Shown: positions 45,880-55,862 of the stretch, one piece after another
How the letters are laid out: each line of letters begins with the position of its first letter
How positions within the stretch are numbered: the stretch's first letter is position 1
Notes under the pieces: generated by a model
Told to the model about the DNA's origin: nothing
Database searches by the model: none
The model's input: only the letters and a program-made list of their open reading frames with translations
Made by a program: the position numbers and the translations under genes
Origin: Arthrobacter gandavensis
GTDB lineage: Bacteria; Actinomycetota; Actinomycetes; Actinomycetales; Micrococcaceae
Reading direction: 5' to 3'
Assembly: GCF_015355785.1 (NCBI RefSeq)
Contig: NZ_JADKYW010000006.1
Location: forward strand, 124,001-188,000
DNA: 64,000 bases

Positions 45880-48423
45880 GTGAGCACCCAACCCGCATCA
45901 GCTGCCCCGTCTGCTTCCAGCGCCGCCTCAGCTCCCGCCGCCAACGGCATGGTCCGTGTCCGGGGCGCCGCGGAGAATAACCTCCGCAGCGTCAACGTCG
46001 ACATTCCCCGCGACGCGATCGTCGCCTTCACCGGCATCTCCGGCTCGGGCAAGTCTTCGCTGGCGTTCGGCACCATCTACGCGGAGGCGCAGAAGAGGTA
46101 CTTCGAATCGGTTGCCCCTTACGCCCGGCGCCTGATCTCGCAGGGCCACAATCCCAAGGTGGAGGCCATCACGGGACTGCCTCCCGCCGTCGCGCTCCAG
46201 CAGCGCCGCGGTACGGCCAGTTCGCGCTCTACGGTCGGCACGCTCACCACGCTTTCCAACTCAATGCGCATGCTCTTCTCCCGCGGCGGTACGTACCCGG
46301 CCAACGCCCAGCCCGGCAGCCTGGACTCCGATGCCTTTTCACCCAACACCGCTGCCGGTGCGTGCCGTGAGTGCTCCGGGCTCGGCGTCGCGCACACCGT
46401 CACCGAAGAGTCCCTGGTTCCCGACCCGTCCCTGACCATCCGGGAGGGCGCCATCGCAGCCTGGCCAGGCGCGTGGCAGGGCAAGAACCTGCGGGACATC
46501 CTGATCCACCTGGGCTACGACGTCGATGTGCCCTGGCGGAAGCTGCCGAAGAAGGACCGCGACTGGATCCTCTTCACCGAAGAACAGCCGGTGGTCACCA
46601 TCACCCCGCAGCGCGACCGCGTCGCCAAACCGTACAAGGGCCGGTTCTGGAGCGCGCGCAGCTACGTCCTGCATACCCTCGCCGACTCCGGCAGCGCTAA
46701 GATGCGCGAGCGGGTCGTCGAGTACATGGTTTCCGGTCCCTGCCCGGTGTGCGGCGGAGCGGGCCTGCGTCCGGAGGCCCTGGCCGTCACGTTCGCGGGA
46801 CGGAACATTGCCGAGCTCAACGGTGCGACGCTCGGTGAACTGGCGGAAATCATCCGGCCGACGGCGGAACTCAAGGCGGCCGGCACGGCTTCCCGTTCCG
46901 CGGCATCGAACGAGGACACCGAAGTCGCCGTCACCATCACCCGTGACCTGCTTTCCCGGCTTGAGATCCTGATTTCACTGGGCCTGGGCTACCTCAGCCT
47001 GTCCCGTGCGACGCCGACGCTCTCACCGGGGGAGATGCAGCGGCTGCGGATCGCCACACAGCTCCGGTCGGGCCTGTTTGGCGTTGTCTATGTCCTGGAC
47101 GAACCGTCCGCCGGCCTGCATCCGGCAGACGCCGAACCGCTGCTGGCTGTCCTGCAGCAGCTCAAGGATGCCGGGAACTCGGTGTTCGTCGTCGAGCACA
47201 ACATGGACGTGGTGCGAAGCGCCGAGTGGATCGTTGATGTGGGCCCGCAGGCCGGCGACGGCGGCGGAACCGTGCTCTACAGCGGCCCGGTGGCCGGACT
47301 CGCGGAGGTAGCCGAGAGCGCAACCCGGCCGTTCCTCTTCGGTGGGGCGGAAGAAGCCGCTCCGGCGCGGCGGCAGCCCGAGCGCTGGCTGTCCCTCAAG
47401 GGCATCTCGCGGCATAACCTTCGCGAACTCGATGCAGACATTCCGCTCGGCGTGCTGACTGCCGTCACCGGTGTGTCCGGATCCGGCAAGTCCACCCTGG
47501 TGAGCCAGGTCCTCGCCGAAGCCGTCGGTACCGAAGTCAACGGTGCGCGCCCGGAAGCCGAGGATGACGACGACGCCGAGCAGAACAGCGACTCCGGTGT
47601 GCAGATGCGGCGCATTCAGGGCCTTGAGCACCTGGACCGGCTGGTGAAGGTTGACCAGCGTCCCATTGGCCGGACGCCGCGTTCGAACCTGGCAACCTAC
47701 ACAGGGCTTTTCGACCACTTGCGCAGGCTCTATGCCGGAACGGATGAGTCGCGGTCCCGCGGGTACAACGCCGGACGGTTCTCCTTCAACGTGGCCGGCG
47801 GCCGCTGTGAAACCTGCCAGGGCGAGGGATTCCTCGCCGTCGAACTGCTGTTCCTCCCTGGCACCTACGGTCCCTGCCCCGACTGCCACGGCGCCCGGTA
47901 CAACCAGGAGACCCTGGAGATTACTTACCGGGGCAGGTCCATCGCGGATGTCCTGGGCATGCGGGTTGAGACGGCCGCGGAGTTCCTGTCCGACGTTCCA
48001 GCGGCAGCCCGCAGCCTGAGCACACTGCTCGACGTCGGCCTCGGTTACCTGAGACTGGGCCAGCCGGCCACGGAACTCTCCGGCGGCGAAGCGCAGCGGA
48101 TCAAGCTCGCCACCGAACTGCAGCGCGCCCGGCGCGGCCACACCCTCTACCTGCTGGATGAGCCGACCACCGGCCTGCACCCGCAGGACGTCCAGCTGCT
48201 ACTGGCGCAGCTGAACCGGCTGGTGGATGCCGGCAATACCGTCGTGGTGGTGGAGCACTCGATGAACGTCGTCGCTTCCGCTGACTGGGTGATCGACATG
48301 GGGCCGGCCGGCGGCGACGACGGCGGACGGATCATCTGTTCCGGGACGGCTGATGAAGTGGCAGGCTGCGAGGCCTCGCGGACGGCGCCGTACCTGGCGG
48401 CTGCGCTCGAACGGCTGAGCTGA
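45880..48423 (+). CDS. Class II UvrA paralogue (UvrA2/DrrC-like ABC ATPase)
   Basis: An 847-residue duplicated ABC ATPase of the UvrA family. The two P-loops are GISGSGKSSLAFGTIYAE and GVSGSGKSTLVSQVLAEA; the signatures are LSPGEMQRLRIATQL and LSGGEAQRIKLATELQ. Zinc-type cysteines occur in CRECSGLG, CPVCGGAG and CETCQGEG/CPDCHGARY. It is about 100 residues shorter than UvrA1, as in class II proteins lacking the UvrB-binding domain. Homologues such as DrrC give resistance to DNA-intercalating drugs or act in DNA damage tolerance. The divergent MarR regulator fits inducible resistance. GTG start with no strong Shine-Dalgarno. A repeat element follows its stop. Confidence 0.9.
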   Translation: MSTQPASAAPSASSAASAPAANGMVRVRGAAENNLRSVNVDIPRDAIVAFTGISGSGKSSLAFGTIYAEAQKRYFESVAPYARRLISQGHNPKVEAITGLPPAVALQQRRGTASSRSTVGTLTTLSNSMRMLFSRGGTYPANAQPGSLDSDAFSPNTAAGACRECSGLGVAHTVTEESLVPDPSLTIREGAIAAWPGAWQGKNLRDILIHLGYDVDVPWRKLPKKDRDWILFTEEQPVVTITPQRDRVAKPYKGRFWSARSYVLHTLADSGSAKMRERVVEYMVSGPCPVCGGAGLRPEALAVTFAGRNIAELNGATLGELAEIIRPTAELKAAGTASRSAASNEDTEVAVTITRDLLSRLEILISLGLGYLSLSRATPTLSPGEMQRLRIATQLRSGLFGVVYVLDEPSAGLHPADAEPLLAVLQQLKDAGNSVFVVEHNMDVVRSAEWIVDVGPQAGDGGGTVLYSGPVAGLAEVAESATRPFLFGGAEEAAPARRQPERWLSLKGISRHNLRELDADIPLGVLTAVTGVSGSGKSTLVSQVLAEAVGTEVNGARPEAEDDDDAEQNSDSGVQMRRIQGLEHLDRLVKVDQRPIGRTPRSNLATYTGLFDHLRRLYAGTDESRSRGYNAGRFSFNVAGGRCETCQGEGFLAVELLFLPGTYGPCPDCHGARYNQETLEITYRGRSIADVLGMRVETAAEFLSDVPAAARSLSTLLDVGLGYLRLGQPATELSGGEAQRIKLATELQRARRGHTLYLLDEPTTGLHPQDVQLLLAQLNRLVDAGNTVVVVEHSMNVVASADWVIDMGPAGGDDGGRIICSGTADEVAGCEASRTAPYLAAALERLS

Positions 48424-48441
48424 GTTGTTCCGGGTTCGGCC

Positions 48442-48524
48442 GGAGGGTTCGGAACGGCGGCAACGAAACTCCTTAGCTCGCAGAGCTCACCAGGAGTATT
48501 AAAGCCGCCTAACCCGAACCCTCC
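48442..48524 (+). repeat. Structured repeat element, copy 1 (3' of the UvrA-like gene)
   Basis: The 66-bp core at 48451-48516 recurs at 53620-53685 on the other strand with 61/66 identical bases. Basal arms GGAGGGTTCGG (48442-48452) and CCGAACCCTCC (48514-48524) pair perfectly. Inside them, GGCGGC (48456-48461) pairs with GCCGCC (48504-48509) and ACTCC (48468-48472) with GGAGT (48493-48497). AGCTC (48475-48479) pairs with GAGCT (48483-48487) around a GCA loop. Between the second and third stems lies a symmetrical 6x6 loop, AACGAA opposite ATTAAA, identical in both copies. The element starts 19 bases after the upstream stop codon, in the sense direction. Confidence 0.85.
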
Positions 48525-48609
48525 CGCCGTCGGAATCCGTGGCTGGGGCTCTCGCATCGGCGCGGCGCCGGGGTATGGCTAAGAGCTCGTTTCGTTCGTG
48601 CTGGAGAAC

Positions 48610-49170
48610 TCAGAGGGCTCGGCTGACGGTGCTTCGGTGCCTCCGGGTTCGTAATCGCAGCGTGACCCTATCGGAGCCCAGGGAAACTTTAAGCAGGCGC
48701 ACGGCCACACGGGGTAGGTACAGACGCCCGGAGGGACAGCAGCCGGGAGGCCCCGCGGTGGAATCGTTCGTTCCCAGGCGCGGGGAATTGGTGTCCTGGT
48801 CCCAGAGGATGGTCTGGCGCAGGATCCGGCCCTGGACCCATACGTGCTCCGGCCCGGTACCCACGGTCGCAACCCAGAGGTCCCGATTCTGTTCTGAGGT
48901 GTTTACCTGGGTTCCGGATGCTGCCAGCGTGAAGGCGTCGACATTGAAGCGGCTGGTCTTTTCAAGTTTCTGGAGCTGGGACACCACATCGTTGTAGGTC
49001 AGGATGCTGGAGATGTTGGTGTTCCCGTTGGGGGACGGGAGATTGGCATCGGCGACAGCGGGTGCCGTCCCGCTAAAAGGAATAACGACGGCGAGGGCAG
49101 CGGCGGCGGCCAGCCCGCGCCATCGTCGGAGGGGTGTGGGGCTGCCGGTGCTTTGTGGTGAGTTGGTCAT
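48610..49170 (-). pseudogene. Truncated M14-type zinc carboxypeptidase
   Basis: The reading frame starts normally: ATG with a GGAGGAAACC site, then a signal peptide (RWRGLAAAAALAVVIPFSGT, probable cleavage after AVA). A segment typical of M14 prodomain and catalytic start follows (SSILTYNDVVSQLQKLEKTS, RDLWVATVGTGPEHVWVQGR). Where the family continues with the zinc motif HGNEP, this frame reads ILRQTILWDQDTNSPRLGTN and runs into Arg-rich sequence that ends after 186 residues; an intact enzyme is several hundred residues longer. No His/Glu zinc ligands remain. It reads as an internal or 3' deletion; whether the secreted stub is expressed is unknown. Confidence 0.7.
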
Positions 49171-49349
49171 GGTTTCCTCCGGTGAACGTCTGGGAAGACC
49201 AGGGACTGCTGCCTCCGTCGGAATCTTGAGTTTTGTCTCTCGTCTTGAGTAAAAATCGAGGAAAAATTTGGAATCGACGAATAGTTACGCATCAGGAATG
49301 ATCCGCCCGTGCGGTTGACAGCCGAAAGAGTCCTGACGAGCATTGCGCT

Positions 49350-49829
49350 ATGACTCAGCAGGAAGCACTGCCGCTCCGTCTTGTCCTGGTGGTCCTCGGA
49401 ATCCTTGCCCTGGGGTCGCAGACAGTGCTGCTGCCGCGCCTCGCGGGCGAGTACGCCACGGCGTATCCGCAGGTCGCGCACCTAGCCGTCCCTTACACCG
49501 TCGCGGCGATCGCCGCAGTTGTCGGTTTCGAAGCGGCGCTGCTGGCGGCGTGGCGGATGCTCAGCATCGTTGTGGCAGAGGGCTCGCTGACCCTGGGCGC
49601 AGCCGGGCCGGCAAGCCTTATGGCAGTCTCGCTCGGCCTGTCCGGCGTAACTTTGGCCGGGATCTGCGCGCATGCCGGGTCCGTAGCAGGGGTCGGCGGT
49701 CCCGCGATGCTGCTGGGACTGCTTTGCGGACTGGCGCTGGTTCCCGCTGCCGTGGGGCTGCGGAACAGGATCCTGCGAGCCGGCATGGAACCCGCCGCAG
49801 ACCTGGACGGGCGCTACCGCTGGATGTGA
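49350..49829 (+). CDS. DUF2975-like membrane protein
   Basis: A 159-residue protein with four predicted membrane helices (LRLVLVVLGILALGSQTVLL, YTVAAIAAVVGFEAALLAAW, ASLMAVSLGLSGVTLAGICA and AMLLGLLCGLALVPAAVGLR). The segment QTVLLPRLAGEYATAYPQVA resembles the start of DUF2975 proteins, often paired with a Cro/CI-type regulator; no such regulator follows here, only the decayed gene. Function unknown. Confidence 0.65.
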   Translation: MTQQEALPLRLVLVVLGILALGSQTVLLPRLAGEYATAYPQVAHLAVPYTVAAIAAVVGFEAALLAAWRMLSIVVAEGSLTLGAAGPASLMAVSLGLSGVTLAGICAHAGSVAGVGGPAMLLGLLCGLALVPAAVGLRNRILRAGMEPAADLDGRYRWM

Positions 49830-49843
49830 AAGGAAGCAGCGGC

Positions 49844-50007
49844 ATGGCCCCGACAGGCGCCAGGAACACGGTCGATGAGGTGATGTAGCAGCTGGCCGCC
49901 CTCGAGGATCCAAAACGCGGGCGGGGGGACCTGCGCGTCGCCTGGTTCGCACCCGCCCTGCGCTCGTCTGGATTGCTGAGATGGTCCGCAGGCATGAAGG
50001 GAAATGA
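49844..50007 (+). pseudogene. Remnant of an AlkD-like DNA alkylation repair gene
   Basis: The start region reads ARNTVDEVM, a TAG stop at 49886-49888, then QLAALEDPKRG in the same frame. This resembles the conserved N-terminus I recall for AlkD-type proteins (TVDEV-QLAALEDPK). About 50 bases later the frame reads PALVWIAEMVRRHEGK and a stop at 50005-50007, which resembles their C-terminus. The 200 or so residues between are missing. A ribosome site (AAAGGAAG) still precedes the ATG. Both ends of one gene joined by a large internal deletion plus a nonsense codon is the simplest reading. Confidence 0.5.
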
Positions 50008-50010
50008 AGC

Positions 50011-50622
50011 ATGGGAACAGTATCGCTTGACTTGTTTATGACCCTTGACGGCATCTACCAGGGACCCGGAGGCGCCGGGGAGGACACCTCCGGAGGGTTC
50101 ACACTTGGTGGCTGGCAGGCGGCCTTCGCCGACGCTGAATCCGGCGCCGCGATCATGGCGGGCATCAATCGGATGGACGCGCTGCTGCTTGGCCGCAGGA
50201 CCTACGACATCTTCGCCGGGTACTGGCCGCAGCTGGGGAACTCCAATCCCATAGCGGCAAAGTTCAACTCAATGGACAAGTACGTAGTGTCCCGGGCCCT
50301 GGAAGAAGCCGGCTGGGACGGGACCACCGTGCTGTCCAGCGCAGAAGAGACGGCGCAGCTCAAGGACCGACACGAAAACATCCACGTAGTGGGCAGCGGG
50401 GACCTTGCAGGTTCGCTGCTGGCGGCCGGAATCCTGGACCGGTTGAACCTGTTCCTGTATCCGGTAACGCTGGGCTCGGGAAAGCGGATCTTCTCCGGCG
50501 ACGGCGGCCTCCCGGCAGCCTTCACCCTCGCTGAGCCGCCGCAGGCTTTTCCGGCCGGAGTCCTTCGCTTGGTTTATGACCGTAACGGCGTTCCGGTAAC
50601 GGGACTCGACGCCGGCTCGTAG
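50011..50622 (+). CDS. Dihydrofolate reductase family protein (RibD C-terminal-like)
   Basis: A 203-residue protein with the DHFR/RibD-C fold: MGTVSLDLFMTLDGIYQGPG at the start, DALLLGRRTYDIFAGYWPQ in the middle, and ENIHVVGSGDLAGSLLAAGI plus LFLYPVTLGSGKRIF near the end. These are widespread, poorly characterised reductase-like proteins; there is no evidence that it is the essential FolA. The ATG is 3 bases after the remnant of the AlkD-like gene, whose last codons now provide the ribosome site AAGGGAAATGAAG. Confidence 0.88.
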   Translation: MGTVSLDLFMTLDGIYQGPGGAGEDTSGGFTLGGWQAAFADAESGAAIMAGINRMDALLLGRRTYDIFAGYWPQLGNSNPIAAKFNSMDKYVVSRALEEAGWDGTTVLSSAEETAQLKDRHENIHVVGSGDLAGSLLAAGILDRLNLFLYPVTLGSGKRIFSGDGGLPAAFTLAEPPQAFPAGVLRLVYDRNGVPVTGLDAGS

Positions 50623-50645
50623 CGGCTGCCGGAGGACCAGGCACT

Positions 50646-51311
50646 TTACGCGCCGGGACGGGCCTTGTCCTCTAACCGGCCTGTTAGGGGACCAAGCACC
50701 AGCAGAGATGCCCACACCAGGCGTCCGGGGCCGGGGCCGGCCAGGAAGGTCACCGGAATAGACGCGAGGAACACCGCGGGCACGGTGGCATGGGGGAGTG
50801 CTTGCGCCAACCGGATAAGGGTCCGGGCGCCCGGCACACGGCCTTGCCGGCGGGCGGAGAGGCGGAGCGCCGCCTGGGCCAGAGAGGCCAGCGCGATGTT
50901 CGCCGCGTATAGAGCGGTGGGCAAGGCAAAGTCGGAGGTGCCGGGATCGCTGGTCCCCTGGGTGGTGAACGGCAGCAGAACGATGAAAAACGCCGCTACC
51001 GTGTTCCAAACGATGACGGGTGGCGTCATCAGGAGAATTCCGGCCGTAATTCGGTAGTTGACCCGCCAGAACACGGCGATGACCACGAAGCTGAGCAGGA
51101 AACCGAAAATCTGGGAAATCAGCCCGGAGTCCAGCAGCGCGGACATACTGGACCACGACCGTGCCGGCGGCAGGTCGATATTCGTAACGAGCAGGGTAAT
51201 GGCGAAGCCGTAGATTGCGTCGAAGAAGGAGACGCTCCGCCCGAATTCGACCGAGCTGCGGTCGAAGGCCTCGCCTGGCCGCTGCGGTCCATGTTCAGGG
51301 CTTGCTCCCAT
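50646..51311 (-). CDS. TMEM175-family (DUF1211) potassium channel-like protein
   Basis: A 221-residue protein with about six membrane helices. The first helix carries RSVSFFDAIYGFAITLLVTN, a variant of the R-x-x-x-FSD selectivity motif of TMEM175 channels with FFD in place of FSD. Helices 2-4 include ISQIFGFLLSFVVIAVFWRV and WNTVAAFFIVLLPFT. Bacterial members conduct K+. A long hairpin lies between its start and the end of nhaA. Confidence 0.85.
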   Translation of the reverse strand: MGASPEHGPQRPGEAFDRSSVEFGRSVSFFDAIYGFAITLLVTNIDLPPARSWSSMSALLDSGLISQIFGFLLSFVVIAVFWRVNYRITAGILLMTPPVIVWNTVAAFFIVLLPFTTQGTSDPGTSDFALPTALYAANIALASLAQAALRLSARRQGRVPGARTLIRLAQALPHATVPAVFLASIPVTFLAGPGPGRLVWASLLVLGPLTGRLEDKARPGA

Positions 51312-51326
51312 GCCGGGAGGCTAGCA

Positions 51327-51373
51327 CGCCGGACTGGCCTGGACAGCAGAATGCCGTCCAGGCCAGTCCGGCG
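51327..51373 (-). terminator. Long perfect hairpin downstream of nhaA
   Basis: CGCCGGACTGGCCTGGAC (51327-51344) pairs with its exact complement at 51356-51373 (18 bp, 11-base loop), 21 bases after the nhaA stop. There is no T run, yet its position fits the terminator of nhaA. Its loop is ordinary and shows none of the repeat core seen at 48.4 and 53.6 kb. Confidence 0.65.
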
Positions 51374-51393
51374 TACCCAGCAGGGCCGGGGGA

Positions 51394-52698
51394 TCAGCGC
51401 AGGCGGGACTCGACGGCTTCCTCGCTCGTGGATGCTGCGGCCCGGTAGTGACGGTTCCGGGTTGCCAGGATCGCAGCGCCCATAGTCGCGGAGATGATGG
51501 ATCCAACGATCACGCCCACCTTCATATGGTCCGAAGCGGCACTCGCGGCGTCGTAGGACAGCTCGCCCACCAGGAGGGACACGGTGAACCCGATGCCGGC
51601 AACGAAGGACATTCCCAGGATGTCGATCCAGGCCAGGGACTTGTCCACCGTGATGCCGCGGAGCCTGGTGACAAGGAAGGTGCCCGCGGTAATGCCGATC
51701 GCCTTGCCGAGGACCAGCCCGCCGATGATTCCCAGGGCGATGCTGCTTCCCAGCGCATCGAACAGGCCGCTGAAGCCGCCGACTGTGACGCCTGCGGAGA
51801 AGAACGCGAACACCGGTACCGCGACGGCACTGGAAAAGACGGACCACTTGTCCGCGAAGTGTGCGGCCATTCCTTCGAAGAGGGGCTCGCCGTCGCCCCT
51901 GGTCCCAACTCGGACCTTGGCCCGGCCCTTCGCAACGACGGGAACCATAAAGCCAAGCAGGACGCCGGCGACTGTCGCATGAATTCCCGAGGCGTGGATG
52001 AGGGTCCAGACCGTGACGCCAAGGGGGATCAGGATCCACCAGGAGCGCACGCCGCGCTGCACCAGGACGGCAAAGACTGCCAGCGGCACCAGGGCGGCAA
52101 GCAGCGGAACGAAACCAATGCCGTTGGTGTAGAAAACGGCGATGATGGAGATGGCCAGCAGGTCATCCACTACGGCGAGTGTCAGCAGGAATGTCCTCAG
52201 TGCAGGGGGGAGGAACCGTCCGACAACAGCAATGACAGCCACGGCGAAAGCGATGTCCGTGGCCGCGGGGATCGCCCAGCCGTTGAGCGCGTCACCGCCG
52301 GCGTTGCGGTTGATGAGGGCGAAGATCAGCGCAGGAACCGCGACGCCGCCGATCGCCGCGACGATGGGCACCAGTGCCGTGCGCGGATCACGGAGCTTGC
52401 CGGCCACGAACTCTTCTTTCAGCTCGAGACCGACGACGAAGAAGAACACGGCAAGCAGACCATCTGCTGCCCATGCTGCGACGCTGAGGTTCAGGTGGAG
52501 CACTTCAGGCCCGAAGGAGAATTCGCGTACCTGCTCGTAGACGCCCGAGAGCGCGGAGTTGGCCAGAAGAAGAGCCAGGACGGTGGCACCCAGCAGCAGG
52601 GCGCCGCCCGTGGTGTCCTTGGCGAGGGTTTGATGGACGCCGCGCCAGATTGAATGCGGGCGCTGGTTATCTGGCAGGGCATTGGAGGATGAGGACAT
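51394..52698 (-). CDS. nhaA: Na+/H+ antiporter NhaA
   Basis: A 434-residue membrane antiporter that expels Na+ in exchange for protons. It has the family landmarks LLAVFFFVVGLELKEEFVAG in the first third and the ion-binding Asp pair in [20 protein letters not shown]. The unwound helix-11 region is ILGMSFVAGIGFTVSLLVGE. The start MSSSSNALPDNQRPHSIW is a normal soluble N-terminus. Monocistronic with its own hairpin. An NhaR-type regulator is not adjacent. Confidence 0.95.
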   Translation of the reverse strand: MSSSSNALPDNQRPHSIWRGVHQTLAKDTTGGALLLGATVLALLLANSALSGVYEQVREFSFGPEVLHLNLSVAAWAADGLLAVFFFVVGLELKEEFVAGKLRDPRTALVPIVAAIGGVAVPALIFALINRNAGGDALNGWAIPAATDIAFAVAVIAVVGRFLPPALRTFLLTLAVVDDLLAISIIAVFYTNGIGFVPLLAALVPLAVFAVLVQRGVRSWWILIPLGVTVWTLIHASGIHATVAGVLLGFMVPVVAKGRAKVRVGTRGDGEPLFEGMAAHFADKWSVFSSAVAVPVFAFFSAGVTVGGFSGLFDALGSSIALGIIGGLVLGKAIGITAGTFLVTRLRGITVDKSLAWIDILGMSFVAGIGFTVSLLVGELSYDAASAASDHMKVGVIVGSIISATMGAAILATRNRHYRAAASTSEEAVESRLR

Positions 52699-53023
52699 GG
52701 GGAGATCTTTCGTGCGCTGTACCTGACATGGGCATAGTGCACCTGCGGATCCGGGATGTGGTCAGGCAGGTGCGGGTCAGGAGCGTGGCGGCGGGCAGCC
52801 GGCGATCTCGCCATGTGCGTTGGTGCCCCAGGAACTCATCCAGCCGTTTGTTCCGCTGGCCCGCTTGGCCAGCAGCAGGCGCTTGAGGTACGCCGAAAGA
52901 GCCTGCGTGGAGGCAGGCACAACGGAGCGGCGTCGGGCAGTCATAGCTCCAAGTTTAGCAAGGATGCTGATGATGCCCTCACTCGTGACGCCGGCTTCCA
53001 GTGCCGGGGAGACGGCAGCGTGT
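52699..53023. other. Intergenic region upstream of nhaA
   Basis: 325 bases between nhaA and the DUF2231 gene, both minus-strand. It should contain the nhaA promoter. One low-confidence small frame (52777-52944, minus) is listed separately. No strong hairpin and no recognised operator or riboswitch was seen. Confidence 0.4.
52777..52944 (-). CDS. Possible small basic protein (55 aa), unrecognised
   Basis: ATG followed by TARRRSVVPASTQALSAYLK and RLLLAKRASGTNGWMSSWGT, ending PPPRS. GGAG lies just 2 bases before the ATG, closer than ideal. It matches no family I know. The frame is open for another 50 codons upstream, which in this high-GC DNA means little. It may be real or a chance frame. Confidence 0.25.
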   Translation of the reverse strand: MTARRRSVVPASTQALSAYLKRLLLAKRASGTNGWMSSWGTNAHGEIAGCPPPRS

Positions 53024-53557
53024 TCAGCGCCGGGACACCCCGCGGCTGAGAGCCAAATAGCCACCAAGGAATCCGGCCGCGGCCGCGGAGACATTTGCTG
53101 CCAGGCCCAGCAGCACGCCGGCCCTGTGCCTGCCGCGCAGGCGCGCCGCGAGCGACGCTGTCATAAGGATCGTCGCAGCGTCCGTGCCCAGGGCGTGTAC
53201 TCCTCCGATCCGCCTGTCTGCTCCCGAAAGAGCCGTCCAGTCATTGGCCCCGGCCAGGGCCGTCGGTACGGAAGCGCATAGCCCGGCGGCCACCAGCAGC
53301 GTGGCACTGCGCCGGGCGCGTACTCCGCCGACGAGGTCCAGCACCGTGGCGCTGAGCCAGCAGCCAAGCGGCAGATCCGTGAGGACGGGATGCAGGGAAT
53401 GACCTGCTACGTGCCCGTTGAACGGCGTACCACGGACCCATCTGAGGATGGGGCCGTACAGGTACTCTTGGGACCGGGCGATGCCCTCAGACGCCGGACT
53501 CTCACCGACCGCCTTGACGACACGCTCCGAAACTGTGGAAGTTTTCACGTGCGCCAA
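53024..53557 (-). CDS. DUF2231 membrane protein
   Basis: A 177-residue protein with about four membrane helices. The diagnostic motif is GHSLHPVLTDLPLGCWLSAT; related families coordinate haem or metal with such His residues, but no function is established here. Later helices include SATLLVAAGLCASVPTALAG and GVLLGLAANVSAAAAGFLGG. ATG start at 53557. Repeat copy 2 lies 50-142 bases upstream, between this gene and fadB. Confidence 0.85.
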   Translation of the reverse strand: MAHVKTSTVSERVVKAVGESPASEGIARSQEYLYGPILRWVRGTPFNGHVAGHSLHPVLTDLPLGCWLSATVLDLVGGVRARRSATLLVAAGLCASVPTALAGANDWTALSGADRRIGGVHALGTDAATILMTASLAARLRGRHRAGVLLGLAANVSAAAAGFLGGYLALSRGVSRR

Positions 53558-53606
53558 GGTACGCCCATTCCGAACTGCGGCCTAGAGAAGCGGCACAAAA
53601 GGCAAA

Positions 53607-53699
53607 GCGCCGGACGGACCGGGTTAGGCGGCTTTAATACTCCAAGCGAGCTCTGCGAGCGTAGGAGTTTCGTTGCCGCCGTTCCGGTCCGCCCGGCGC
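53607..53699 (-). repeat. Structured repeat element, copy 2 (3' of fadB)
   Basis: Read on the minus strand, the core 53685-53620 is 61/66 identical to copy 1. The basal stem is a different sequence: GCGCCGGACGGACCGG (53607-53622) opposite CCGGTCCGCCCGGCGC (53684-53699), 16 bp with a single G-T wobble. The conserved GGCGGC/GCCGCC and ACTCC/GGAGT stems and the AACGAA/ATTAAA internal loop are unchanged. All five base differences lie in or beside the apical hairpin, which still folds as GCTC-GCA-GAGC. It begins 21 bases after the fadB stop in the sense direction and ends in a T-rich stretch (TTTGCCTTTTG), as a terminator would. Confidence 0.85.
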
Positions 53700-53720: not shown

Positions 53721-55862
53721 CTAGGCTGCGGCCACGGGTACAGCACCAGCGTTGAACAGCTTTCCGTTCACCCGCTCAGAGGCACCCACGCGGTCCAGGT
53801 ACGGGGTGATGCCGCCGAGGTGCATCGGCCAGCCCGCGCCCAGGATGACGCAGAGGTCGATGTCTTCCGGTCCGGCGACGACACCTTCATCCAGCATCAT
53901 GCCGATCTCCTCGGCGAGTGCGTCCTGCGTCCGCCGCAGCACTTCCTCCGAGGTGGACGGTGAGTCGCCGAAGGTCAGCAGGTCAAGGGTTGCCTGCGGC
54001 ACGTACGGCTTGCCGTCCTCGTCCTTCTGCCAGAGCGACTTGACGCCGCCGTCGATCAGCTTCTGCGAGTTCTCCGAAACGTGGAACCGGTCGCCGAAGG
54101 CTGCGTGCAGGGATTCCTGCACGTGCTGCCCAACCGGCAGTCCCACCAGGGCCAGCAGGTTGAACGGAGTCATCGGCAGGCCCATGGGGCGCAGCGCGTT
54201 GTCCGCGGTCGCGGCGTCGGTGCCTTCATCGAAGACCTTCGTGATCTCACCGAACATGCGGCCGAGGATGCGGTTGACCACGAACGCTGCGGCATCCTTG
54301 ACCAGTACGGCGGTCTTCTTCAGCTGCTTGGCCAGGACGAACGCGGTGGCAAGCACGGCGTCGTCGGTCTTCGGGGCGCGCACAATCTCCAGCAGCGGCA
54401 TCACGGCCACCGGGTTGAAGAAGTGGAACCCCACCACGCGCTCGGGGTGCTGCAGGTCCGCCGCCATTTCGGTGACGGACAGTGAGGACGTGTTGGTGGC
54501 AAGGATGCATTCGGGTGATACCACTGCCTCCACCTCGGCGAAGACCTGCTTCTTGACGGACATTTCCTCGAAGACGGCCTCAATAACGAAGTCGGCGTCG
54601 GAGAAGGCCTCCTTGGAGACGGATCCGGTAACCAGGGCCTTGGTGCGGTTCGCGGCGTCCGGGGAGATGCGGCCCTTGTCCAGCAGCTTGTCCACCTCGG
54701 CGTGGACATAGCCCACGCCCTTGTCCACGCGCGCCTGGTCGATGTCCGTCATCACAACGGGAACCTTGAGCTGCTTGGCAAACAGGAGTGCGAGCTGGCT
54801 GGCCATCAGCCCTGCGCCGACGACGCCGACCTTGGTCACCGGACGGGCCAGCTTCTTGTCCGGAGCGCCGGCGGGACGCTTGCCGCGCTTCTGCACCAGG
54901 TCAAGGAACGCGTACACGGTGGCCTGGAACTGCGGTGTCTGCATCAGTTCGGCCAGTGCGGCGCACTCTGCTTCGCGTGACTGTTCGCGGGTCCAGTCCT
55001 TGCCGGCTTCGAAGATGTCCAGCACCTTTGCGGGTGCGGGAGCGGCGTTGGAGGTGCGTGCCTCGACGAAGGCCCGGCCGGCTGCCACGGCGGCATCCCA
55101 CCGGTCGCCCACCTCGGCGGGCTCGACGGCGTTGGGCCGGGTAACCGTTTCCTCGCCCGTGATGACCCGGGAGGCCCAGGCAAGGGACTGCTCCAGGAAA
55201 TCGGCCGGCTCGAACAGCGCATCGGCGATCCCGAGCTTGTAGGCCGCCGGACCGGAGAGCGTACGGTTGTTGCTCAGCGGGTTCTCGATCATCACCTTGA
55301 CGGCATTTTCGGGTCCGATCAGGCGCGGCAGCAGGTACACGCCGCCCCAGCCGGGGACCAGGCCAATGAAGGCTTCCGGCAGAGCCAGGGCGCCGGCGCC
55401 GGTGGAGACCGTGCGGTAGTCCGACTGCAGGGCGATCTCCAGCCCGCCGCCGAGCGCAACGCCGTTGATGAACGCGAAGGTGGGAACGCCCAGCGTGCCG
55501 AGCTTGCCGTAGACCTCGTGGCCCAGGGCTGCCATGGCGACGCCGTCCTCGTACTCGGCCAGTGTCTTCACAGCCGAAAGGTCCGCACCGGCCACCAGGT
55601 AGTGCGGCTTGCCGGTCACTCCGACGCCCACAATCTCGCCCTTGCCGGCGCGTTCCTTCAGCTCGTCCAGCACACCGCCGAGCTCCAGCAGGGTGTTCGG
55701 GCCCAGCGTGGTCGGGCGGGAATGGTCGACGTCGTTGTCCAGCGTGATGAGGGCGAAGGTGCCGGCACCGCCGGGCAGCCCAATGTCGGAAACGTAGGAG
55801 TGGGTGACGACCTCGTTCGGGAAAAGCCCGGCCAGGCGCTGGTAATCAGGTGCTGCGGTCAT
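53721..55862 (-). CDS. fadB: Fatty-acid oxidation multifunctional enzyme: enoyl-CoA hydratase / 3-hydroxyacyl-CoA dehydrogenase
   Basis: A 713-residue FadB/FadJ-like protein. The N-terminal crotonase domain has VAGADLSAVKTLAEYEDGVA and the oxyanion segment FINGVALGGGLEIALQSDYR. The dehydrogenase part has the Rossmann motif KVGVVGAGLMASQLALLFAK, catalytic VVGFHFFNPVAVMPLLEIV, and the C-terminal 3HCDH domain (VNRILGRMFGEITKVFDEGT). It carries out the second and third steps of beta-oxidation with FadA. Its ATG overlaps the fadA stop by one base (TAATG), so translation is coupled. An upstream in-frame start within fadA is rejected. Confidence 0.93.
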   Translation of the reverse strand: MTAAPDYQRLAGLFPNEVVTHSYVSDIGLPGGAGTFALITLDNDVDHSRPTTLGPNTLLELGGVLDELKERAGKGEIVGVGVTGKPHYLVAGADLSAVKTLAEYEDGVAMAALGHEVYGKLGTLGVPTFAFINGVALGGGLEIALQSDYRTVSTGAGALALPEAFIGLVPGWGGVYLLPRLIGPENAVKVMIENPLSNNRTLSGPAAYKLGIADALFEPADFLEQSLAWASRVITGEETVTRPNAVEPAEVGDRWDAAVAAGRAFVEARTSNAAPAPAKVLDIFEAGKDWTREQSREAECAALAELMQTPQFQATVYAFLDLVQKRGKRPAGAPDKKLARPVTKVGVVGAGLMASQLALLFAKQLKVPVVMTDIDQARVDKGVGYVHAEVDKLLDKGRISPDAANRTKALVTGSVSKEAFSDADFVIEAVFEEMSVKKQVFAEVEAVVSPECILATNTSSLSVTEMAADLQHPERVVGFHFFNPVAVMPLLEIVRAPKTDDAVLATAFVLAKQLKKTAVLVKDAAAFVVNRILGRMFGEITKVFDEGTDAATADNALRPMGLPMTPFNLLALVGLPVGQHVQESLHAAFGDRFHVSENSQKLIDGGVKSLWQKDEDGKPYVPQATLDLLTFGDSPSTSEEVLRRTQDALAEEIGMMLDEGVVAGPEDIDLCVILGAGWPMHLGGITPYLDRVGASERVNGKLFNAGAVPVAAA

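Follow-up and report, generated by a model that had tools for sequence, protein, structure and literature searches.

Palindromic intergenic elements with a near-invariant internal loop in Arthrobacter and close relatives: a candidate REP-like family

Two inverted copies of a structured sequence in a 64,000-nucleotide stretch of the Arthrobacter gandavensis genome (contig NZ_JADKYW010000006.1, positions 124,001–188,000; hereafter the window) are best read as members of a REP-like family of palindromic repeats of Arthrobacter and its close relatives. The similarity noticed originally, between 48451–48516 and the reverse complement of 53620–53685, holds exactly as claimed (61/66 positions identical), and Pfam agrees with the names given to the upstream genes, which encode a UvrA-type ATPase and a FadB-type 3-hydroxyacyl-CoA dehydrogenase. 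Both copies lie in the sense direction behind a stop codon, as the initial annotation had it, but not at the distance of about 20 bases given there: the 48451–48516 stretch follows the TGA of the uvrA-like gene by 27 nt, and the 66-nt stretch of copy 2 follows the TAG of fadB by 35 nt. The nested fold described for both copies was recovered, with a stability above that of shuffled sequences (z-scores -6.4 and -6.0; 0/200 shuffles as stable as copies 1 and 2), and the opposite strand of copy 1 folds equally well (z-score -6.6). Absent from the earlier description was an outer arm of at least 11 bp on each side, the sequence of which differs between the copies (GGAGGGTTCGG/CCGAACCCTCC vs GGGCGGACCGG/CCGGTCCGTCC) and which is paired in both (Table 1).

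Table 1. Features of the window; positions are counted from its first letter.
Feature	Position	Strand	Basis or remark
Element copy 1 with both arms	48442–48524	+	Fold, covariance model
Copy 1, arms and linkers	Left arm 48442–48452, linker 48453–48455; linker 48510–48513, right arm 48514–48524	+	
Copy 1, core	48456–48509	+	Model R2, 76.6 bits, E 6.1e-18 (score not independent, the copy being a row of the R2 alignment)
Copy 1, stem P2	48456–48461 / 48504–48509	+	
Copy 1, stem P3	48468–48472 / 48493–48497	+	Small apical hairpin between the P3 sides
Internal loop, left side AACGAA, near-invariant	48462–48467	+	
Internal loop, right side ATTAAA, near-invariant	48498–48503	+	Alignment of copies
Element copy 2 with both arms	53612–53694	-	Paired arms extend a few bases beyond
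Copy 2, arms	Left 53684–53694, right 53612–53622	-	
Copy 2, core	53627–53680	-	Model R2, 79.6 bits, E 9.8e-19 (score not independent, the copy being a row of the R2 alignment)
uvrA-like gene, upstream of copy 1	45949–48423	+	Gene caller and Pfam
fadB-type gene, upstream of copy 2	53721–55862	-	Gene caller and Pfam
Stretch between the two convergent copies	48527–53609	.	Gene content varies by species
RibD_C-domain protein	50038–50622	+	Pfam; in the stretch between the two copies
NhaA-type Na+/H+ antiporter	51394–52698	-	Pfam; in the stretch between the two copies

Each unit spans about 90 bp. The arms are outermost and a short linker joins them to stem P2; a 6x6 internal loop (AACGAA/ATTRAA) separates P2 from stem P3, which is capped by a small apical hairpin. 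The linkers include AAC and TAAC, TTCCT, TTAT and others, and together with the arms they set the subfamilies. P2 occurs as GGCGGC, GCGGCC, GGGGCC or GACGGC, each with its matching partner; many of the copies located between rpoB and rpoC in a second genus (g53) carry GCGGCC/GGCCGC or GGGGCC/GGCCCC, and one genome of a third genus (G032) carries GACGGC/GCCGTC. The covariation analysis of P2, P3 and the apex in 35 varied copies (33 distinct) identified 54 cells changed on both sides, as compared with 14.3 (sd 3.1) in shuffled alignments, with 0/500 shuffles as high; when the partner was slid out of register, the fraction of paired cells fell from 93 to at most 50%. For the arms, the pairing score in 165 copies was 10.09 with the own partner and 5.69 (sd 0.13) with partners dealt among copies. 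Thus, both sides of the stems change in concert and the fold is maintained. The internal loop is the least variable part of the unit: the third letter of its left side is C in 197/199 copies and T in 2, with the other letters constant, a count affected by the search pattern, in which most of these letters are prescribed; exceptions exist between rpoB and rpoC, where the copy of the A. gandavensis genome reads GTCAAA and that of another genome (G012) AATGAA. The loci L121–L234 were located by the exact core pattern, so the conservation of the core is partly built into this set, and less biased estimates come from the searches with rpoC described below. The combination of a near-unchanged unpaired stretch with stems that change in matched pairs suggests a putative protein that would recognize folded DNA or RNA. 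Tandem half-elements accompany some of the 183 copies analyzed in this respect, with the left arm repeated upstream in 14 and the right arm repeated downstream in 33 (controls: 2 and 2). At the sites of L314, L318, L324, L343, L189 and their relatives the left-half tandems lie upstream and the right-half tandems downstream, as if the palindrome grows outward.

The exact core pattern has 8 matches in the A. gandavensis genome and none when written backwards, and a covariance model built from these 8 copies identified 11 copies in the same genome; chance can thus be excluded. Searches of 59 genomes with the covariance model gave matches in 30, i.e. in 29/29 genomes of the genus, 1/8 of other genera of the family and 0/22 of other families of the order, with 2–21 copies per genus genome. 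The exact pattern, applied to 295 genomes of the family, matched 35: 24/24 within the genus and 11/271 outside it, the latter distributed among 4 further genera (backwards control: 0 matches). At least 114 stretches with the element were found in named genomes, and among the 80 matches listed one is from Paenarthrobacter and the rest are from Arthrobacter. No matches were found in viral contigs (exact pattern), plasmids (copy 1 as the query) or phages (copy 2 as the query). Rfam 15, searched at gathering and relaxed thresholds, contains no relevant match to the element, and the first annotation had likewise not recognized it as a described RNA family. Literature searches on Arthrobacter palindromic repeats, structured RNAs and rpoB–rpoC hairpins yielded no description of the family; the genome table of a survey of REPs (PMC12306157) includes Arthrobacter livingstonensis, with a count that may or may not include the element.

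None of the 199 distinct copies, which represent at most 53 sites, falls inside a gene called by codon usage; 53 is an upper bound, since the clusters are over-split (fadB, icd and the aldo/keto reductase gene each account for more than one). Counted by site, 28 are convergent, 16 tandem sense, 7 tandem antisense and 2 divergent, copies too near the end of a locus having been left out of both these and the mismatch counts below. A co-directional gene is located upstream of 175/199 copies; its stop codon is no more than 150 nt away for 168 of these and precedes stem P2 by a median of 57 nt. At the 32 sites with convergent copies, 23 have the copy nearer to the sense stop and 9 nearer to the antisense stop. 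The sense orientation proposed initially as conserved is therefore a real bias, yet by site a moderate one (16:7 tandem, 23:9 convergent). Many positions of the element are common to several species. Among 19 genus genomes, it is present in 15 next to fadB (lenient pattern), in 12 next to the aldo/keto reductase gene (decayed in 3 more) and in 2 next to icd, where a terminator of normal appearance precedes it. Inside an operon, it occurs between grpE and dnaJ in four loci of other genera (3 sense, 1 antisense). In one genome (G005) the core at fadB is replaced by GGCGGCATTCCTGCCGCC, with the arms retained. Another copy 3' of fadB (L253, genome G009) shows a near-perfect stem instead of the internal loop, followed by a T-run, as template-switch correction might produce. 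Near a further copy lies a fluoride riboswitch (RF01734, 40.9 bits, L173 314–392, + strand).

The gap between rpoB and rpoC was analyzed in loci identified by rpoC searches, without reference to the element. Within the genus, 22/29 genomes have it there (20 sense, 2 antisense) and the other 7 have a plain GC hairpin. For the second genus, rpoC was found in 37/38 genomes and 30 loci were examined, 29 of which have the element (23 sense, 6 antisense); it is absent from this position in the 8 other genera of the family and the 3 genomes of the order that were examined. Between genus genomes (190 pairs of sense copies), the 25 letters of P2 and the loop are 0.980 identical, as compared with 0.878 for third codon positions of the neighboring genes. 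The 2 antisense copies of the genus retain 25/25 core letters, and the antisense copies of other genera show a mean core identity of 0.987 (in loci found by the exact pattern), with single core changes in the antisense copies of L202 and G308. Whether or not the element is present, the rpoC leader ACATTCAGATTTAGAGAACAAGAGAGAACAGGGACC hardly varies within the genus (L081–L109). In a tree of 60 rows (43 sense, 8 antisense, 9 without the element), the 8 antisense rows require 8 changes, of which well-supported branches force 7. Every antisense row is a tip and none has another antisense row as its sister, a pattern also compatible with selection for the sense orientation. One pair of sister rows (L123 and L152) shows opposite orientations of the interior between similar arms. 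In two other genomes the gap contains a sense copy and, adjoining it, an apparent shrunken antisense copy (L375 in G336, L385 in G127); because these genomes seem to hold opposed copies, some of the "flips" may represent differential loss rather than inversion, and exchange between species can also contribute to the changes of orientation. A purely selfish element is expected to decay at old positions. Presence in 22/29 and 29/30 loci with few changes in the loop calls for either a function for the host or repeated re-insertion.

The strand in which the fold is made can be assessed from the mismatches, as a folded RNA tolerates G.U pairs and does not tolerate A.C. As yardsticks for this comparison we used tRNAs and terminators of the same genus. 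The tRNAs (19 distinct, some of them from other families of the order) gave 46 cases of the G.U type vs 0 of the A.C type, a ratio that leans on the G.U preference of ARAGORN itself, and the icd terminators of 19 genus genomes, which are independent of that preference, gave 13 vs 1. For the element, 226 copies were evaluated, with each position of a site contributing a single case; the arms yielded 40 G.T vs 35 A.C cases (p 0.64), and P3 yielded 1 vs 18 in its first five pairs (p 7.6e-5). The apical hairpin yielded 13 vs 6 (p 0.17) in 199 copies, and a separate count of P3 over seven pairs gave 1 vs 25; these two counts leave out most copies of the GCGGCC type, which are mostly included in the 226-copy set. 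Therefore, the arms behave like a palindrome of DNA, P3 like a stem of the opposite strand and the apex weakly like a sense-strand structure. The initial annotation had recommended a search for further copies, their placement after stop codons and covariation, and all of these were found (11 copies in the genome, a co-directional gene upstream of 175/199 copies, strong covariation). This combination is a trap, as it resembles an RNA of the 3' untranslated region, yet for the arms and P3 the comparison of G.T with A.C gives no support to an RNA of that strand. The function at the RNA level suggested initially is not borne out by the tests that distinguish RNA from DNA: T-tracts are scarce (at least 4 T among the first 8 nt past the stem in 3/155 copies), the orientation between rpoB and rpoC changes repeatedly, and the sense G.U signature is lacking in the arms and reversed in P3.

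The other suggestion made at the outset, a structure-dependent mobile element, is the closer reading, although a transposase, a target duplication and a clean empty site were not found. The Y1 transposase (PF01797; RAYT, IS200/IS605) was detected in 0/29 genus genomes by a search that was positive in 5/14 controls, and a comparison by eye of six sites with their empty relatives, none of which gave exact boundaries, revealed neither a target-site duplication nor a clean empty site. As a MITE would, the unit has terminal inverted repeats, namely the outer arms. It appears to have spread, because genomes of the genus differ in their number of copies (2–21) and the arms are common to the members of a subfamily; with transposase, duplication and empty site lacking, copy number and subfamilies are the features from which we infer mobility. 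Such common arms also suggest that arms and core move as one. Of 12 places in the A. gandavensis genome that match the 17-nt left core with at most 2 mismatches, 11 are full elements and 1 is unrelated. Insertion of the core into the loops of pre-existing hairpins was considered and rejected: the commonest arms of this genome, with a gap of 3–33 nt, occur at 3 places, none of them repeated. Element-free species with a plain hairpin at the same place are seen at rpoB–rpoC and in G008.

Two loci with species-variable genes are each bounded by an inverted pair of elements approximately 0.8–7 kb apart (L063, L067, L069–L080 and 48439–53697 of the window). One lies between fadB and either the uvrA-like gene or an aldo/keto reductase gene, the other between xthA and nadE; for xthA, nadE and the aldo/keto reductase these are presumed names, judged from the starts of the proteins. 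The idea that such pairs bound exchangeable cassettes was rejected, as the members of the pairs adjoin conserved genes and many copies are single.

The explanation that we tentatively prefer, at somewhat less than even chances, is that of a REP-like palindromic DNA element, the loop of which would be recognized by a putative protein. The hairpin would be formed by DNA, in a cruciform or while single-stranded during replication. Template switches from one arm to the other could keep them complementary and at times invert or delete the interior; homogenization of arms and inversion of the spacer by template switching between inverted repeats have been described in yeast (PMC8604942), and template-switch mutations at quasipalindromes in E. 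coli (PMC7202029). The Arthrobacter element would be like such quasipalindromes in arm homogenization and spacer inversion, and differs from them in being a dispersed family with a loop that mostly resists homogenization. The loop may be the recognition site of the putative protein, which would spread the element or put it to use at a small number of fixed sites, rpoB–rpoC among them. Copies would persist between genes, chiefly near gene ends, because they are least harmful there, and within an mRNA they might act at most as passive 3' hairpins. Against a DNA element stands the bias for the sense orientation by site (16:7 and 23:9), which is unexplained without a strand preference, and against a strand-neutral one the ratio of 1 vs 18 in P3, with the apex leaning the opposite way. 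A more specific proposal, namely a RAYT-less system of hairpin recognition in which the putative protein would read the 6x6 loop, the stems would be free to vary, the interior would turn over and flip between closely related species and the rpoB–rpoC copy would be near-fixed in two genera, is conceivable, if rather doubtful.

A role of the sense-strand RNA is a serious rival. According to it, a protein or nuclease would recognize the loop of a cis-acting RNA, in the 3' untranslated region or between cistrons, and process or stabilize the upstream mRNA. We regard this as unlikely on balance, although the co-directional upstream gene in 175/199 copies at a median of 57 nt, the sites inside the rpoB–rpoC and grpE–dnaJ operons, the covariation around a near-invariant loop, the confinement of antisense rpoB–rpoC alleles to tips and the excess of G.T over A.C in the apical hairpin (13 vs 6) all speak for it: the arms lack the G.U signature and P3 reverses it while the controls are positive, antisense copies keep the core too, and the flanking genes appear unrelated (by eye). 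The element is like the RNA motifs of Rfam that occupy such regions in its conserved unpaired loop, covarying stems and position at gene ends; it differs from them in lacking an Rfam 15 match and the sense wobble signature in arms and P3, and in changing its orientation at an orthologous place. The reversed ratio in P3 could alternatively mean that the fold is made from the opposite strand, either as an antisense RNA or as single-stranded DNA of that strand. The latter would be as in attC sites of integrons, which are folded sites of variable sequence with matched arms, small conserved parts and one active strand, and which the element resembles as a variable folded site with matched arms and small conserved parts. 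The 18 C.A/A.C cases vs 1 G.T are wobble pairs on the other strand, and the arms of the rpoB–rpoC copies of the second genus lean likewise, with 12 vs 2, non-independent cases as they were counted per copy. Such a strand preference is nonetheless improbable, given the overall ratio of 40:35 in the arms and the apex that leans the other way (13:6), and the C.A in P3 could instead reflect an A bulged out next to a C run.

Ordinary intrinsic terminators with a common sequence would account for the high stability of the GC hairpins behind stop codons, for the 28/53 sites in convergent gaps, for the few T that follow the outer stem in some fadB copies (by eye), and for what is seen at fadB in the four genomes that lack a matching copy, namely a different hairpin in three and a shortened form in one (by eye). 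With a T-tract in so few copies, an element conserved between rpoB and rpoC, an icd copy placed behind another terminator, and an internal loop conserved with no need for it in termination, we consider this very improbable. Least credible of all is a known REP moved by a RAYT transposase, or the ends of an IS200/IS605 element. Short palindromic intergenic repeats with tandem half-repeats around some copies would be in line with it; the Y1 transposase is absent from the genus, on which ground the identity with RAYT-associated REPs was rejected, and the GTAG/CGTC tag of REPs (described in PMC3733652) occurs at no common offset (at best, CGTC in 46/199 and GTAG in 10/199 copies). REP-like is thus meant as a likeness: as in REPs, REPINs and BIMEs, the Arthrobacter repeats are short, intergenic and palindromic, fall into several subfamilies and form tandem arrays around some copies, and the REPs of Stenotrophomonas also have preserved palindromes that suggest complementary mutations (PMC2817692). 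They differ from REP/REPIN/BIME systems in having neither RAYT nor tag, and from REPs in their number of 2–21 per genus genome, where REPs usually exceed 100 (PMC2817692), and in their unit, which measures about 90 bp and contains a near-invariant internal loop.

The element adds to Actinomycetota a clearly delimited family of structured intergenic repeats, which is not accompanied by the transposase that accounts for REPs elsewhere. One copy is near-fixed at the rpoB–rpoC junction, at which a strong terminator would be expected to do harm, and it makes the function of the element amenable to direct experiment.
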